A stretch of 48,252 nucleotides of DNA. Origin: a virus. Made by a program: the position numbers and the translations under genes. Numbering within the stretch: position 1 is the first letter of the stretch; each line of letters opens with the position of its first letter. Of the stretch, positions 2,606-30,020 are shown one piece after another. Under the pieces are notes generated by a model. The model ran no database searches, was not told where the DNA came from, and saw only the letters and a list, made by a program, of their open reading frames with translations. The stretch spans positions 1 to 48,252 of IMG/VR virus record IMGVR_UViG_3300020419_001295; one strand, written 5' to 3'.

Positions 2606-2634
2606 AGTATATATTGCTTATATAGTAAAGTCAA
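2606..2634 (-). promoter_or_regulatory. Sigma70-type promoter TTGACT-17-TATACT
   Basis: The minus strand reads TTGACT (2634-2629), a 17-base spacer and TATACT (2611-2606). It lies in the short gap between the gene ending at 2636 and the 423-residue gene starting at 2583, and would drive the latter. Confidence 0.75.
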
Positions 2635-2635
2635 C

Positions 2636-3316
2636 TTATTTGAAAGTCTTTTTCTGGTGGAAAGCTCTCTTATACATATCGAAAAGAAAGAAATTCATCT
2701 TGCTACTTGTTTCTTCTTTTCCTAAATGCAAGGAGTGTGTCCAGGAATCTCTCTTGAAAGGAATAAACTGCACTAGAGGTTGTCCTGGTTTAATATCAAC
2801 TTCATTTTTTATTATGCAAGGGAATTCTAGATTGCTTAAATCATATAAGTCTGTATCTAGTATAAATGGCATAATAGAAAAGTCTTTTGTAAAATTATAA
2901 TATGGTTGAAAGAACAAGGTGCTATAGCCTTTAGGTGTTTCTATCCTCCAAGGTAATTTAAATTTATAATAACTTCTCTTAGCACCTTCTATTGGTATAG
3001 GACAAAACTCATGCGGGTAAAAGTAATGAGGTGCGGTAACATGATTAAGTGATCTATAAAATTCTCCAGGCAGTTCAACAGGGTGTATAACGTCTGGTTT
3101 TTCTATATTATCTTCTGTATTAATTCCTATTGCTTGTTCAAACACATTAGGAATGATATAACCAGCAGTGATATAATCACGTACTGGCATATCATTTGAA
3201 ATAGAATTTTTATCGTTTAACTTTGCATACCATTCTGGCATACTATCCTTTGCAGGAACAATAGGAAAGTTTTTTAAAACATTTTTATCGTGACATATGA
3301 ATTTTATATCATTCAT
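2636..3316 (-). CDS. Conserved phage protein of unknown function (226 aa)
   Basis: The likely start is the ATG at 3316 (MNDIKFICHDK), which overlaps the end of the preceding gene; a longer upstream reading is less likely. The protein is rich in aromatic residues and proline (SMPEWYAKL, HPVELPGEFYRSLNH, FFQPYYNFTKDFSIMPFI, LVQFIPFKRDSW), suggesting a compact beta-rich fold. It carries no signal peptide or membrane segment. Proteins like this recur in marine T4-like phages without a known role. Confidence 0.65.
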   Translation of the reverse strand: MNDIKFICHDKNVLKNFPIVPAKDSMPEWYAKLNDKNSISNDMPVRDYITAGYIIPNVFEQAIGINTEDNIEKPDVIHPVELPGEFYRSLNHVTAPHYFYPHEFCPIPIEGAKRSYYKFKLPWRIETPKGYSTLFFQPYYNFTKDFSIMPFILDTDLYDLSNLEFPCIIKNEVDIKPGQPLVQFIPFKRDSWTHSLHLGKEETSSKMNFFLFDMYKRAFHQKKTFK

Positions 3317-3906: not shown

Positions 3907-3934
3907 TTTATCTCCGTCTTTACGTTCACGGGGA

Positions 3935-5272
3935 TTAAACTTTTTCTCCTGCTTCGAAACCTCGGAAGCACTTGAATCTCGGGAACCTGAGACTATACGT
4001 TTCAGAATCTTGAGACTTCGTTCTAGCATCAGCTCTAATCTCTATTAAGTTACCAATGAGACTATCACGTTCAATCCAGAACTCATCACGTTGAGAATCA
4101 GTGAAGCCGCTCCCACAGTTAAGTTTATAATTGTATCCATCGTCTTCTCCTTCCACTATTACGGCACCTAATCTTCCTTCGTTACGTCCAGTACCTTCTT
4201 CAACCGCAACCACTTTCAATGTCACTTCAATAAATGGTTTTGCTTTCAACCAACTATGTGTTCTTTTGCATTCATATGGTGCTTCAGGATCTTTTATCAT
4301 AACCCCTTCATAACCACCGTCTACAGCCGCTTTATTAAGCTCTACAAAGCGATCTTGACCTTCTTGGGTATCTAAGTCCACATCTTCCCAATCAAGTGTT
4401 TGTACGTGCTTTAAGACGTCTTTATGCTGATCTACCCAAGCCTTGACTGCTTGGCTTCTAAAAGACTGTGTTTTATCCCACATACCCTTTTGGAATTCGG
4501 ATAATGGACACATATCAAACAAATGTAATACTGCATCGTCTGATTGCTTACCATCTTTCCTATGTACCTGTTTCATTAAATCTTGAAAGTTAGCACTCAT
4601 TACTTCTCCGTCTAATACTAAGTCGTATGGTGCAGGATTTGTTTTGAGTACTTCTTCAATTTCTGCAATTATATGCGGAAAATTATGAAACTGTTTACCG
4701 TTACGGCTAAACATTTCTACTCTACTAAACTGACCGTGACTAGTATCACCTTGTATAATTGTAATTACCCTTACACCATCAAGTTTAACTTCTACTTGTT
4801 TCTTTCCTACCATTTTCTTTTCATGGTTAGCAGAATCATGTGCTAAAGGACAAGTAAAAATTGGAATAGCATATTGCGGAAACTTTTTAGCTACTTTGTT
4901 AACAGTCTTCTCACTTACACCGCAACGTAAGTCTTTGATTAATATTCTTCTATAAAACTTATTCCATTGATCCATTGTTGCAATGTCTCTTGTAAGCAAA
5001 ATTGCATCTCTGGCATCATGTCCTGTCAATTCTCTTTTGTTTAATTTTTCAGCAAGATCTAAAAATACTTCCCATTTTAATCCTTGCCCGTCTACTTTGG
5101 AATCAGGAACTTGTTTTACACCAAAAGTGTATAGTGGATCTAAAGCCATTTTAACACCAGCAAAGAATTCATCTAATCCTTCTTCCATAGCTGATTGTAA
5201 AACTTGTTCTTTTACTAAACGGCTGTTGTCAGCTTCTAAGTTATCTATAACTGTCTGTGGTTGTGTTCTCAT
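3935..5272 (-). CDS. ATP-dependent DNA ligase (445 aa)
   Basis: This enzyme seals nicks in DNA and is related to T4 gp30. The adenylated lysine motif KxDG is visible as VEVKLDGVRVI (about residue 160), followed by a FSRNGKQFHNFPH segment (motif Ia region), LVLDGEVM (motif III) and EGVMIKDPEAPYECKRTHSWLKAKP (motifs IV-V region). The C-terminus is an OB-fold-like domain (LKVVAVEEGTGRNEGRLGAVIVEG). The start at 5272 (MRTQPQTVID) follows AGAGGGAAAAAG; an upstream in-frame ATG has no good site. Its beginning overlaps a small membrane-protein gene by 32 bases. Phages of this type use it in replication and repair. Confidence 0.93.
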   Translation of the reverse strand: MRTQPQTVIDNLEADNSRLVKEQVLQSAMEEGLDEFFAGVKMALDPLYTFGVKQVPDSKVDGQGLKWEVFLDLAEKLNKRELTGHDARDAILLTRDIATMDQWNKFYRRILIKDLRCGVSEKTVNKVAKKFPQYAIPIFTCPLAHDSANHEKKMVGKKQVEVKLDGVRVITIIQGDTSHGQFSRVEMFSRNGKQFHNFPHIIAEIEEVLKTNPAPYDLVLDGEVMSANFQDLMKQVHRKDGKQSDDAVLHLFDMCPLSEFQKGMWDKTQSFRSQAVKAWVDQHKDVLKHVQTLDWEDVDLDTQEGQDRFVELNKAAVDGGYEGVMIKDPEAPYECKRTHSWLKAKPFIEVTLKVVAVEEGTGRNEGRLGAVIVEGEDDGYNYKLNCGSGFTDSQRDEFWIERDSLIGNLIEIRADARTKSQDSETYSLRFPRFKCFRGFEAGEKV

Positions 5273-8259: not shown

Positions 8260-8786
8260 ATTTTTTGCCTCTTTGCTATTGACCAAGTCGATCCAAGCAC
8301 CTCCGATACTGCTCTTCTAACCTGGGCTTGATTTATGTCATGTCCTAATAAAAATCCGCCATCTTTAATTTTAGGATACCAGTTTATAATGTCCTCTTTT
8401 ACATCTTCGTATTCATGTCCTGCATCTATAAATGCAAAATCTAAAGAAGCATCTTCAACAAACTTTGTTGCATAACTTGTAAAATGTCTGTATAAAACCA
8501 AACGAGGATGTACTTCTCTTTGGTATTTTAAAAGGTTTTGATAAAACTTATAGTTAACACTAGATGTATCATTTTCTAAATCTTCACTTTTAGTTTCATT
8601 AAATCTTACAGATTTTTCTGACCATATGTCTACACCTATCATTTTCAAGTGAGGAACATTATCTAATAGATATTTTAGATTGACACCTTTTTGTACACCT
8701 AGTTCTGCACCATGTACTAATCCGTGCTTAAGAATAAACTTTACTAGCCAATCACCTTTTCCTTTGTCTGGTGGTAATTTAGTCAT
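8241..8786 (-). CDS. Class I SAM-dependent methyltransferase (181 aa)
   Basis: The motif AELGVQKGVNLKYLL is the glycine-containing SAM-binding loop, MIGVDIWSE supplies the acidic residue that holds the ribose, and FAFIDAGHEYEDVKEDI with DGGFLLGHDI match the methyltransferase_24 type often linked to glycan or lipid modification. The target is unknown. The start is coupled to the ClpP stop, and the gene sits between ClpP and the PsiE-like protein. Confidence 0.78.
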   Translation of the reverse strand: MTKLPPDKGKGDWLVKFILKHGLVHGAELGVQKGVNLKYLLDNVPHLKMIGVDIWSEKSVRFNETKSEDLENDTSSVNYKFYQNLLKYQREVHPRLVLYRHFTSYATKFVEDASLDFAFIDAGHEYEDVKEDIINWYPKIKDGGFLLGHDINQAQVRRAVSEVLGSTWSIAKRQKIWYVKR

Positions 8787-9370
8787 TATTTTTTCTCTGC
8801 GATAAAGTCAGCTAATCCATAATCAATGGATTCTTTTGCACTCATAAAGTAATCACGATCCATATCCTTCGCAATTCTATCTCTGTCAAGTCCAGTGTGT
8901 TTGACGTATATATCTGTCAGTGTTTCTTTCCAATATTGCAATTCTCTATATCTAATCTCTACATCACTTGCTTGACCTGACGCACCACCACTAGGTTGAT
9001 GAATCATGTGCCTAGCATGTGGGAGTATGGCTCTTTTACCTTTTTCACCTGCCATTGCTAAGAAACTACCCATACTAGCGGCAATCCCCATTACTGTTGT
9101 GTGTACAGGAGATTTAATAAACTGCATCGTATCGTAAATGCTCATACCGGCTGTAACACTACCGCCTGGCGAATTAATATAAAAATTAATTGGCTTTCCT
9201 GTATTTGTAGATTCAAGGAAAAGCATCTGTGCAACAATTAAACTTGCACTTGTACTATTCACATCAGTGTCTAGCATTATAATTCTATCTTTCAAAAGTC
9301 TGCTATAGATATCATAGCTTCTTTCACCTCTTGATTCTTTTTCTATTACTACTGGTACTAAATTAGGCAT
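8786..9370 (-). CDS. clpP: ClpP-type serine protease subunit (194 aa)
   Basis: This is the proteolytic barrel subunit of Clp proteases. The catalytic triad is intact: Ser99 in [10 protein letters not shown], His124 in HMIHQPSGG and Asp172 in [10 protein letters not shown]. The oxyanion-hole loop [10 protein letters not shown] is also present. The length matches bacterial ClpP without a long propeptide. No Clp ATPase is encoded here, so it must use the host ClpX or ClpA. Together with ClpS (18131), Hsp20 and the tmRNA it forms a proteostasis set. The start overlaps the upstream gene by 8 bases. Confidence 0.95.
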
Positions 9371-16747: not shown

Positions 16748-16828
16748 ATGTATTACCTATTTGGAATAATGATTGGAATTATATTCGTAGCTATGATAGG
16801 TCTTGCAATAATGCAAGGCCTTAGCTAA
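16748..16828 (+). CDS. Membrane micro-protein (26 aa)
   Basis: The frame MYYLFGIMIGIIFVAMIG continues to LAIMQGLS and starts immediately after the stop of the coiled-coil gene (TAG then ATG), suggesting re-initiation. It is a single hydrophobic helix and overlaps the convergent bilin-reductase gene by 8 bases. Without homology it remains tentative. Confidence 0.4.
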   Translation: MYYLFGIMIGIIFVAMIGLAIMQGLS

Positions 16829-17507
16829 TCTTAGGAAACAACATATCCGTACAAAAATTATCTACGTCTGCTTCGTCTAATCCTAGCGACTTCATCACTC
16901 TTGGTGTATGTGGATTTTGTTGTTGGTTTTCACAATAATAGTTTTGACTTGCAATAGTTAACTCTCTATCGCCTTCACCAGTGTATTCGCCAATAGTATC
17001 AAGATACGTATGAAGATTGTCCAGTGCCATTTGAATGATAACGTCAGCTTCATCTTCTTTAACATTACTAGCGGCAATCATGCTAGGAGTAAAGATGTTT
17101 TGTGCCCACTGTGGCAACTCTCGTACTTTTTCCGGAATAAAATCTTTAACAGTATCCTGATACCATTGAACCATTGGATGATCTTCACCACCCGAACTTG
17201 CTGAAAAATCATGAAATGCACCTGTCATTTTATTCTTGCCAGCAATCACGTCAAAGCCATATATCGGTCCGTTATTATTAAGTTGGGGGAATACACAAAC
17301 ATGCATCATCCAAAGACCTTTGGTCTTTCTAGCATCTACAACATCAATGTGAGCTCTTCTCACATCATCGTTTTTCCAAACCCTGTTTATCCAGCCACCG
17401 TCGGCTTGATTAAAATGCTCCATTCCTGGCTCATTTATTTCAGTTCCGTGGTGCTCAAATATTTGGATAATCTGGTCTTGGCACTTTACCAGCTGGTCCC
17501 AAATCAT
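16821..17507 (-). CDS. pcyX: Ferredoxin-dependent bilin reductase, PcyX/PebS/PcyA family (228 aa)
   Basis: Family signatures are unmistakable: VRRAHIDVVDARKTKGLWMM, HVCVFPQLNNNGPIYGFDVI, AGKNKMTGAFHDFSAS, and the C-terminal YYCENQQQNPHTPRVMKSLG followed by LDEADVDNFCTDMLFPK. The catalytic Asp of the family lies in IYGFDVIAG, a His is in MMHVCVFP, and the position of PcyA Glu76 appears to be Asp (AHIDVV). The enzyme reduces biliverdin with ferredoxin electrons to a bilin such as phycoerythrobilin. Phage members called PcyX are reported from marine metagenomes. It sits 10 bases after the heme oxygenase gene, its natural supplier. Confidence 0.9.
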   Translation of the reverse strand: MIWDQLVKCQDQIIQIFEHHGTEINEPGMEHFNQADGGWINRVWKNDDVRRAHIDVVDARKTKGLWMMHVCVFPQLNNNGPIYGFDVIAGKNKMTGAFHDFSASSGGEDHPMVQWYQDTVKDFIPEKVRELPQWAQNIFTPSMIAASNVKEDEADVIIQMALDNLHTYLDTIGEYTGEGDRELTIASQNYYCENQQQNPHTPRVMKSLGLDEADVDNFCTDMLFPKIS

Positions 17508-17517
17508 AATAGACCTA

Positions 17518-18087
17518 TTAAGCTAATTGTTCGTAAATTTTTTGTCTGTATCCGTATGCAATGTTACATTCGATTGAATCTGCATCACTTACTCTAGCAT
17601 CTAGTAAGTTCTTCATTTCTTCTTTCGATGTAGTCATATCTGCAAACTGGTACATTTTTCCACTACCTGGAACTTTATCAGCATACTTGCCTTCTAAGTC
17701 TCCCATATGGTTTGCATATACGTGGGCCATAAGCTTCTGCTTATCATGTTGAATACTTTTAATAATATGATTAATATATTCATCAATTGCCGCCACTGTT
17801 GCTGGAGGATTAGATTCGTCGCCGCCTAGTTCTTTGAAATCTTCTAAGATATCGCTGGCCTGCATTAAACCATCTAGTGGTAAATCATTACCTGGCATTT
17901 GTGGATCCATTGGTGCAAAACAACCCATGCTTAATGCAACATCTTCCATGATGTCATATAGCATGTACATGTTCCATAAGTATTTAAGATACTTGTCGTT
18001 GCTTATTTTACCTGCATTCATTTCAACCGCGAAAGATGTGCTTTCAGCATTGGCTTGCGATGCAGAAGTTAAACTTTGTAAGCTCAT
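17518..18087 (-). CDS. Heme oxygenase (189 aa), divergent heme pocket
   Basis: The fold and order match heme oxygenase: an N-terminal helix (SLTSASQANAESTSFAVEMN), NDKYLKYLWNMYMLYDIMED, and the distal-helix region KLMAHVYANHMGDLEGKYAD, equivalent to the GDLSGG motif. The enzyme opens heme to biliverdin, iron and CO. Aligned by eye with the usual TKxxHxxAExxxF motif, the proximal heme-ligating His is a Gln (SASQANAE), and GDLSGG reads GDLEGK. The start at 18087 has AAGGAGT, and a TAAATA box at 18123-18128 suggests late expression. The bilin reductase follows in the same operon. Confidence 0.8.
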   Translation of the reverse strand: MSLQSLTSASQANAESTSFAVEMNAGKISNDKYLKYLWNMYMLYDIMEDVALSMGCFAPMDPQMPGNDLPLDGLMQASDILEDFKELGGDESNPPATVAAIDEYINHIIKSIQHDKQKLMAHVYANHMGDLEGKYADKVPGSGKMYQFADMTTSKEEMKNLLDARVSDADSIECNIAYGYRQKIYEQLA

Positions 18088-18122
18088 TTTTTACTCCTTA
18101 AGTTATCATTCATTCTATACAT

Positions 18123-18130: not shown

Positions 18131-18448
18131 CTATTCTTTTTCTATTTGTATCTGTAAAGGAAAGCCATTAGCTCTAGCTAATTTTGTTGCTTCTAGAGAC
18201 CTTTGTTCAGCTATTTCAAAGCTATATAACCCAACAATAGCAGTGCCATCTTTGTGTATTTTCATTGTTAATTCTTGGGCTGTCTTCTCAGAATGTTTAA
18301 AAACTTGAACTAAGATTTCTACAACAAAGTCCATAGGTGTTGCGTCATCATTAAGGAAGATAACCTTGTACTTACCAGGTTCTTGAACAAAATCCTTTAT
18401 CTGTTCATTTACTTTTATATCTGTATCTAATTCAACTGTTACTGTCAT
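18131..18448 (-). CDS. clpS: ClpS adaptor protein (105 aa)
   Basis: ClpS binds proteins with destabilising N-termini and delivers them to ClpA-ClpP. The core is typical: GKYKVIFLNDDATPMDFVVE (NDD-TPM signature), ILVQVFKHSEKTAQELTMKI, HKDGTAIVGLYSFEIAE and QRSLEATKLARANGFPLQIQ. The N-terminal tail is short, as in other ClpS. The ATG at 18448 follows GGAG by 5 bases. It lies between Hsp20 and heme oxygenase and partners conceptually with the ClpP at 8786. Confidence 0.93.
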   Translation of the reverse strand: MTVTVELDTDIKVNEQIKDFVQEPGKYKVIFLNDDATPMDFVVEILVQVFKHSEKTAQELTMKIHKDGTAIVGLYSFEIAEQRSLEATKLARANGFPLQIQIEKE

Positions 18449-18465
18449 AATCACTCCATAGTGTC

Positions 18466-28059: not shown

Positions 28060-28193
28060 TGAGTTTGGGAATAAGAAAAGTTATTGTCCGTTTAAGAATG
28101 TGGTATGCAGATATTCGTGGCCATCACGGTAAGCGATGGGATTACGAACCTTCTGAACACTACATGGGAATGGGCAAAAAGAAATCAAGATAA
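28059..28193 (+). CDS. Small basic protein (44 aa)
   Basis: Frame MSLGIRKVIVRLRMWYADIR continues with GHHGKRWDYEPSEHYMGMGK and KKSR. Its start overlaps the preceding stop (TAATG) and it converges with hemE, overlapping by 9 bases. Too short for a family assignment. Confidence 0.5.
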   Translation: MSLGIRKVIVRLRMWYADIRGHHGKRWDYEPSEHYMGMGKKKSR

Positions 28194-29159
28194 TCTATTA
28201 CGGACAGTTTCAATAAACAAATGAACATGTTCTTCAGGAGTAGTCTTATCTATTCCATGACCCAAACCGCAAACCCAACCAGTTGTATCCGACTTGTTAA
28301 TATCGTCACAATATTTTTCTATTTCATACATAAACTTGTGCTTAGATAAAAGCATTTTGTTTTCGTCAAAGTTGCCTTGAACAAACCCTTTGTCAAATGT
28401 TTTAAATGCATCTGATATATCTATTTTACTGTCTACGCCTATGCCACCCCAGTCTCCTTCTACTACTTTACCAATGCACTTTCTGGGTAAGTTCTTACTA
28501 TAGTAAGCTGTTTGTGGCATGGCCATTGCCATTAGTAAAGGAGAATACTTTTCATTAAAGAACTTAGCTGACATATTTTGTAATCCACTATCAAAGATCA
28601 TTACAACTTCCGCACCTGCATCTAACTGCATTCTAATATTTCTTACTAGCAAAGGTATTAATATAGTTTTCATATAGTCTAACTTAAATTGATCTGTTGC
28701 TCTTGTATCTCCACAAGCATAATTCATTAAAGTCCATGGGCCTCCAACAAATCCAATTAAACTTTTATCCTTAGGCAACATGGCTCTAGTTGTTAGCACT
28801 GCTTCTCTTTGAAATGATAAAAAAGATAATGCGTCAGAAATATTACTATGTTCTTCTGCGTTATCTATTGTAAGATTATGTCCAAACTTGGGACCAGGAT
28901 TAAATTCTAAAGGCAATCCTAATCCTTCTAACGGCCAAAGTATATCTGAAAACAAAATTGAAACATCGTAATCAAATTCTCTTATTGGTCCTAATGCTAC
29001 TTCTCCTGCTAAGTCAGGTTGCTTACACAACTCTTCAAATGTGTAAGTTTCTTTTAATTTTCTATAATGAGAATGATATCTTCCTGCTTGTCGCATAAAC
29101 CATATTGGTGGGACATTCTGTGCAACTCTATTACGTGCATTAATAAATTTTTTATTCAC
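28185..29159 (-). CDS. hemE: Uroporphyrinogen decarboxylase (324 aa)
   Basis: HemE removes four carboxylates from uroporphyrinogen III to give coproporphyrinogen III. The invariant arginines lie in PPIWFMRQAGRYHSHYRKLK, the catalytic Asp in SILFSDILWPLEGLG, and the C-terminal His in GWVCGLGHGIDKTTPEEHV. FVGGPWTLMNYACGD is also typical. It is slightly shorter than bacterial HemE (about 340-355 residues). The GTG start overlaps the hemC stop as GTGA. A porphyrin gene in a phage is unusual; see the heme oxygenase and bilin reductase at 16821-18087. Confidence 0.94.
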   Translation of the reverse strand: MNKKFINARNRVAQNVPPIWFMRQAGRYHSHYRKLKETYTFEELCKQPDLAGEVALGPIREFDYDVSILFSDILWPLEGLGLPLEFNPGPKFGHNLTIDNAEEHSNISDALSFLSFQREAVLTTRAMLPKDKSLIGFVGGPWTLMNYACGDTRATDQFKLDYMKTILIPLLVRNIRMQLDAGAEVVMIFDSGLQNMSAKFFNEKYSPLLMAMAMPQTAYYSKNLPRKCIGKVVEGDWGGIGVDSKIDISDAFKTFDKGFVQGNFDENKMLLSKHKFMYEIEKYCDDINKSDTTGWVCGLGHGIDKTTPEEHVHLFIETVRNRLS

Positions 29160-29986
29160 TTTATATTTTTTCCTACTTCCTCACCTAATAACTTATACTC
29201 TAATAACTTACTGGTTGACTCGTAATGTTTTCCTGTATTATAATTTATCGCTTTTAAATTTATACAATCTCCAACTAGACTTGAAACAGCACCTACGGCA
29301 GTATGGCAATCGCCATCTATTTCCTGTAACATAGCTCTTTCAGCCATTACAGAGTAGTATGTATTCCAGTGATTATTTAGTTTAGCTACATCACTATGAG
29401 AAGAACCTTTTCTAGTTTGAACTGCTATAACTCCTTGTCCAACACAAGGAAGCATTTTACTGAAAGGAAATATTTTTTTGATCTTATGTTCTAAGCCTAA
29501 GGCTTCAAGCCCTGCTACTGCTAGGATAATAGCATCATATTGGCCTTCTTCTAACTTCTTAATCCTAGTATCTATATTGCCTCTTATAGGCATGACATCA
29601 AACTCTACATTAAAATTTTCTTTGAGTTGTGCAACACGTCTAGGTGATCCTGTACCTACTTTCGCATGCGGAAACAGTGTCCCTATGTAACAATCTCTAG
29701 GATCGTTTCTTTTTAATACAGCGGAAATTTCTAAACTATCATCCATTACTGCCGGTAAGTCCTTAAAAGAATGCACTGCTACATCTATCTTTTTATCTAC
29801 CAATTGTTGTTCGATAGCAGAAACAAACACACCTTTGCCTCCAATATCTTGGATGCTCTTGTTTTCGAATATGTCGCCGTCTGTTTTAATTTTTACAAGG
29901 TTGGTTTGAAAACTTTTGAAACACTGTGCTTCTACTCTCTTAGCATAATCTATTGCTAGTTTACTACCTCTCACGCCAATGTTCAT
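29156..29986 (-). CDS. hemC: Hydroxymethylbilane synthase / porphobilinogen deaminase (276 aa)
   Basis: HemC joins four porphobilinogens into hydroxymethylbilane. The sequence has the N-terminal IGVRGSKLAIDYAKRVEAQ, the catalytic Asp in DVAVHSFKDLPAVM, the Arg-rich substrate loops GTGSPRRVAQLKENF and PIRGNIDTRIKKLEEG, and the dipyrromethane cofactor Cys in EIDGDCHTAVGAV. It is shorter than most (about 310), lacking part of the C-terminus. The ATG at 29986 follows GGAGG by 5 bases; an upstream TTG is unlikely. It lies 10 bases after the tmRNA terminator with no promoter of its own. Confidence 0.93.
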   Translation of the reverse strand: MNIGVRGSKLAIDYAKRVEAQCFKSFQTNLVKIKTDGDIFENKSIQDIGGKGVFVSAIEQQLVDKKIDVAVHSFKDLPAVMDDSLEISAVLKRNDPRDCYIGTLFPHAKVGTGSPRRVAQLKENFNVEFDVMPIRGNIDTRIKKLEEGQYDAIILAVAGLEALGLEHKIKKIFPFSKMLPCVGQGVIAVQTRKGSSHSDVAKLNNHWNTYYSVMAERAMLQEIDGDCHTAVGAVSSLVGDCINLKAINYNTGKHYESTSKLLEYKLLGEEVGKNIK

Positions 29987-29996
29987 ATGAGCCTCC

Positions 29997-30020
29997 AAAA
30001 AAATGCAACTTTTCTGTTGC
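29997..30020 (-). terminator. Intrinsic terminator after the tmRNA gene
   Basis: The minus strand reads GCAAC, loop AGAAAA, GTTGC, then A and seven Ts (30003-29997). The T-run ends directly before the GGAGG site of hemC. The tmRNA transcript should mostly stop here, with read-through feeding hemC and hemE. Confidence 0.85.

Follow-up and report, generated by a model that had tools for sequence, protein, structure and literature searches.

The window, meaning the whole stretch of DNA analyzed, comprises the 48,252 bases of an IMG/VR virus record; among isolates in the phage collection, Pelagibacter phage Mosig EXVC030M comes closest to it. On the minus strand, an ORF running from an ATG at 18087 down to 17518 encodes a 189-aa protein related to heme oxygenases (HOs), directly followed by a bilin reductase gene in the same orientation. 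The features of this locus, and of two hem genes that provide context, are as follows.

16821..17507, minus strand: intact ferredoxin-dependent bilin reductase of the PcyX type, 10 bp downstream of the HO-like ORF (PF05996, E 4e-17; Asp55)
17518..18087, minus strand: candidate pseudo-heme-oxygenase ORF, 189 aa (PF01126; AlphaFold2; VIA)
17533..17535, minus strand: codon 185, Tyr for a pocket Phe (HO-1 F214; Phe in 99% of canonical relatives)
17554..17556, minus strand: codon 178, Tyr for a pocket Phe (HO-1 F207; Phe in 100% of canonical relatives)
17599..17601, minus strand: codon 163, Asp where HO-1 has R183, the Arg contacting the heme propionate (99% of canonical relatives have Arg; position assigned by profile alignment to HO structures)
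17686..17709, minus strand: degenerate distal motif HMGDLEGK, residues 127-134 (alignment; half of the helix missing in the model)
18055..18057, minus strand: codon 11, Gln where HO-1 has its proximal His, H25 (96 of 100 distinct relatives have His)
18094..18099, minus strand: AAGGAG, ribosome-binding-site-like, six bases before the ATG (sequence)
28185..29159, minus strand: hemE, uroporphyrinogen decarboxylase, about 10 kb away (PF01208, E 1e-59)
29156..29998, minus strand: hemC, porphobilinogen deaminase, overlapping hemE (PF01379, E 7e-63)

The match of the ORF product to Pfam Heme_oxygenase (E 3.4e-11; 43.8 bits against a curated cut-off of 23), together with its predicted HO fold, places it in the heme oxygenase family. 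An in-frame stop lies immediately upstream of the ATG, which means that the protein is not missing an N-terminal His; an upstream alternative start restoring a His was ruled out by this stop together with the good ribosome-binding site. The clpS gene and an hsp20 gene lie farther upstream, together with genes for an IMPDH/GMP-reductase-type protein and a 2OG-Fe(II) oxygenase. The window phage encodes both a ClpP-family protease (8786-9370) and the ClpS adaptor (18131-18454, minus strand).

In the window and in two related IMG/VR contigs, L002 and L003, a gap of 10-12 bp separates the HO gene from the reductase gene that follows it. The window reductase, which is 89% identical to that of L002, carries Asp55 (in AHIDVV) and the other invariant residues, and has the features both of the ferredoxin-dependent bilin reductase family and of PcyX. 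Asp55 is the PcyX-specific catalytic residue (PMC11480375). Given that this residue is kept and that role is reported for it, PcyX activity of the window reductase is reasonable to infer.

We compared the window protein with other members of a set of 100 distinct phage HO proteins, drawn from IMG/VR loci and Mosig. A first-pass annotation of this DNA had claimed that the proximal His is replaced by Gln and that the distal GDLSGG reads GDLEGK. Both readings were borne out. Residues 8-19 are SASQANAESTSF, as quoted there, with Gln11 within SASQANAES, and the distal motif of the family, GDLSGGQM, is shortened by two residues (HMGDLEG--K in the window compared to HMGDLSGGQM in sister proteins). 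In the alignment with phage HOs, which the annotation had proposed as a check, the proximal column is His in 96 of the 100 proteins; the four exceptions are the window (Gln), L002 (Gln), L003 (Lys, but with a His one residue earlier), and the second copy in a further record, L097 (Tyr). The deletion in the distal motif recurs in L002 (GDLEG--K) and L003 (GDLEQ--K), and a scan of IMG/VR for the distal signature returned these two other contigs only, which implies that the altered form is rare in that collection. Assembly error was ruled out because the change is common to three separate contigs. Thus, the window protein lacks the proximal His and the distal GDLSGGQ with its glycine kink that characterize canonical HOs. 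The catalytic distal Asp (HO-1 D140) is present as Asp130 and is invariant in the alignment.

Window residues were matched to HO-1 numbering via profile alignment to solved HO structures, and the alignment revealed changes beyond those annotated earlier, at the equivalents of R183, F207, F214, and R136. The basic residue at the heme propionate (R183), an Arg shared by 99% of canonical phage HOs, is replaced by an acidic residue in all three His-less proteins (window Asp163, L002 Glu, L003 Asp). Both residues 178 and 185 are Tyr in the three proteins alike, and in the window residue 126 (HO-1 R136) is Asn and residue 132 (HO-1 S142) is Glu. Heme-pocket positions, which we take to be the HO-1 contacts, make up 7 of 10 near-invariant columns lost in all three proteins, compared to 9 of 36 kept columns (Fisher p 0.013, for columns that did not evolve independently). 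Equivalents of D140, K179, and G139 are kept, as is E29 in two of the three His-less proteins.

The structure prediction that had also been proposed gave a confident HO fold with a shortened distal helix. The AlphaFold2 model, built from the window and locus sequences (72 in all, with the Mosig row left out), had a pLDDT of 95.2 and a pTM of 0.90. Its best structural matches (VIA) were heme oxygenases, with HmuO at Z 20.8 (rmsd 2.2 over 178 residues) and human HO-1 H25R with biliverdin (5btq) at Z 19.6; TenA was also among the matches. The model of a canonical phage HO, L004, matched HOs at Z up to 22.0. The distal helix spans residues 116-131 plus 133-137 in the L004 model, whereas it spans 116-132 in the window model, where the second half is absent.

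In an IQ-TREE phylogeny, the window protein grouped with L002 (89% identical) and L003 (72% identical) at 100/99, and L085 was their sister at 100/99, within a clade that has eight further members, all of them canonical. The nesting of the three His-less proteins and L085 among canonical HOs implies that the proximal His is ancestral. The first-pass annotation had treated relatives with His in this column as evidence against a replaced ligand; such relatives are the rule (96/100), but the reading stands, since these relatives show the ancestral state, from which this clade has departed by losing the His. L085 keeps the proximal His but has an altered distal motif (ADLTDGPT) and Ser at the R183 equivalent, and so it looks like an intermediate in a stepwise loss of HO residues. 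On this sequence evidence, the window protein is established as a descendant of an ordinary phage HO of the hemO-pcyX cassette. Between the window and L002, dN/dS was 0.067 for the HO gene (dN 0.075, dS 1.13), an approximate value given the high dS, and 0.058 for the reductase gene. Faster evolution of the HO than of the reductase was rejected as proof of relaxed constraint, since canonical pairs do the same in places. The window protein has a predicted HO fold without the His ligand and is under strong purifying selection, as in pseudo-heme-oxygenases of the Arabidopsis HO2 and Plasmodium PfHO type; judging from the lost residues, it would resemble them in lacking heme-degrading activity as well.

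Record L097 carries an intact HO (1129-1707), a His-less HO-like gene (2629-3255), and a reductase (3925-4620). Grouping of this His-less copy with the window clade was rejected (AU p 0.0003), although its long branch makes its exact place unsure. His-less HO proteins thus seem to have two or more separate origins in hemO-pcyX cassettes. The L097 copy and the window clade share A125, E132, and D163, which are absent in 95 canonical proteins; of 17 columns changed in both, only 4 have the same residue, little above chance.

The hemE gene was present in all four records with an altered HO (window, L002, L003, and L085) and in none of 10 other records tested. hemC is more widespread and is not specific to the altered-HO records. 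A link between the altered HO and phage hemE is suggestive only, because the four records form one clade and a further record has a distant hemE together with a canonical HO. A strict link was rejected on these grounds and because the records are fragments. Neither ferrochelatase nor AlaS was found in the window, L002, L003, and L085 records. A scan of genome contigs with the HO alignment returned 14 bacterial MAG loci, and a hemE scan of genome contigs returned no relative. The contig of L011 (G010, 261,806 bases) has a match to 5-aminolevulinate synthase with one TAA inside (54429-55613), and a canonical HO and a bilin reductase are also present there.

Several known systems resemble the window protein in part. 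Mosig HemO belongs to the same family with clear homology and, as in the window, is an annotated HO directly before a bilin reductase. However, Mosig and the 96 of 100 relatives keep the His, and their distal motifs are nearly all canonical or near-canonical, whereas the window protein has neither. HO activity has been shown for CB_2 vHemO of a freshwater phage (PMC11480375), another HemO of such cassettes; the sequence comparison covers Mosig and the IMG/VR loci. Arabidopsis HO2 is an HO homolog in which the proximal His is replaced by Arg and which has no detectable HO activity (PMC11634067). The window protein is similar in its replaced proximal His, but HO2 is a chloroplast protein beside active HO paralogs, whereas the altered window protein is the sole HO found in its record and belongs to a phage cassette. 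Plasmodium PfHO likewise has an HO fold without a His ligand, does not degrade heme, and is retained in its lineage (PMC11634067). Unlike the window protein, PfHO functions in apicoplast gene expression, which requires a charged leader peptide that the window protein lacks; moreover, PfHO is 15-20% identical to known HOs, compared to 57-60% identity between the window protein and canonical-type sister proteins. Finally, human HO-1 H25R with biliverdin, whose fold matches the window model, has a bound bilin in an HO pocket without the His, although this is an engineered protein whose pocket is otherwise unaltered, whereas the window pocket is changed further.

With no strong iron ligand in the proximal helix and with the distal kink, which activates oxygen, gone, the window protein very probably can no longer cleave heme. 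The H25A form of HO-1 is described as inactive (Wilks 1995, as cited in PMC8388933), and this inactivity, taken with the lost distal motif and the lost propionate Arg, points to the same loss. That another His serves as ligand, which the first-pass annotation had suggested (LMAHVYANHMGDL), was not supported, because H122 and H127 occur in 99-100% of canonical relatives and lie on the distal helix, and are thus ordinary family residues and not new. Its alternative, a different heme mode or function, is favored over a replacement His. Catalysis through an unusual axial ligand is very unlikely: the gene occupies the usual place of hemO before pcyX, and searches of the window, L002, L003, and L085 records, all of which are fragments, turned up no second intact HO, but the His is near invariant across the family, and the distal glycine motif and R183 were lost together. 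That the gene is simply decaying beside PcyX is extremely improbable. Loss of active-site residues is indeed progressive from L085 through L003 to the window, but the low dN/dS in practice excludes decay, and the ORFs are full-length in three phages and conserved inside and outside the pocket.

Since the gene has kept its full length, its conservation, and its link to pcyX, we favor a product that works with a tetrapyrrole but without catalysis, and we give roughly an even chance to the interpretation that it is a conserved, non-catalytic pseudo-heme-oxygenase, probably acting with a bilin, beside an intact PcyX. The 5btq structure shows that a bilin can be accommodated in an HO pocket lacking the His. 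The reshaped cavity would bind a tetrapyrrole, most plausibly biliverdin or another iron-free bilin, and the protein, without catalysis of its own, would work with the PcyX encoded next to it in the same orientation, perhaps by keeping the substrate of PcyX bound or passing it on, with biliverdin for PcyX presumably supplied from elsewhere in the infected cell. More tentatively, judging from gene adjacency, a weak indicator on its own, the window protein may be a partner of PcyX in bilin binding or delivery. The retained D140 and K179 equivalents and overall fold suggest that some heme binding may remain, and the protein could instead carry, buffer, or sense heme, with weak axial ligation by Gln11, Glu15, or water. 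The kept G139 equivalent, E29 in two of three proteins, the weak heme binding of PfHO without a His ligand (Kd about 8 uM; PMC11634067), and the hemC and hemE genes of the window phage are consistent with such a role, but the acidic residue in place of the propionate Arg, the two Phe to Tyr changes, and the shortened distal motif predict low affinity; we consider it unlikely. Decidedly unlikely is a pocket re-tooled for an iron-free porphyrin or as a non-heme metal site with the new acidic residues E132, D163, and D170. The three proteins, though diverged, mostly carry the same specific substitutions, three of which recur in the independent L097 copy, and the HO fold hosts non-heme enzymes, as the TenA matches illustrate. 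Against this, few jointly changed columns carry the same residue in both lineages, the window clade has no new His ligands, and a sequence search matched no known non-heme HO-fold enzyme. Similarly doubtful is a broader scenario, in which marine phages turned the cassette HO at least twice into a non-heme-oxygenase protein with an acidic, re-tooled pocket, which might be a new enzyme or ligand-binding protein for an iron-free tetrapyrrole; within the clade of the window, these phages also carry the upper heme-pathway genes hemC and hemE.

Why many phages carry hemO and bilin-reductase genes has been called enigmatic (PMC11480375). A lineage that drops heme cleavage but keeps the HO scaffold and the reductase would separate the two steps naturally, and would make a second role of HO, such as bilin delivery to PcyX, testable. 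Pseudo-heme-oxygenases are few and known from Arabidopsis and Plasmodium, and the phage case described here adds a viral example; none was described in phages in the openly accessible papers searched. At two other loci, the HO gene and a nitrilase-like gene are separated by an additional ORF of about 500 aa (L100, 2479-3993; L103, 2418-3992), and by eye its product resembles a flavin-dependent tryptophan halogenase.
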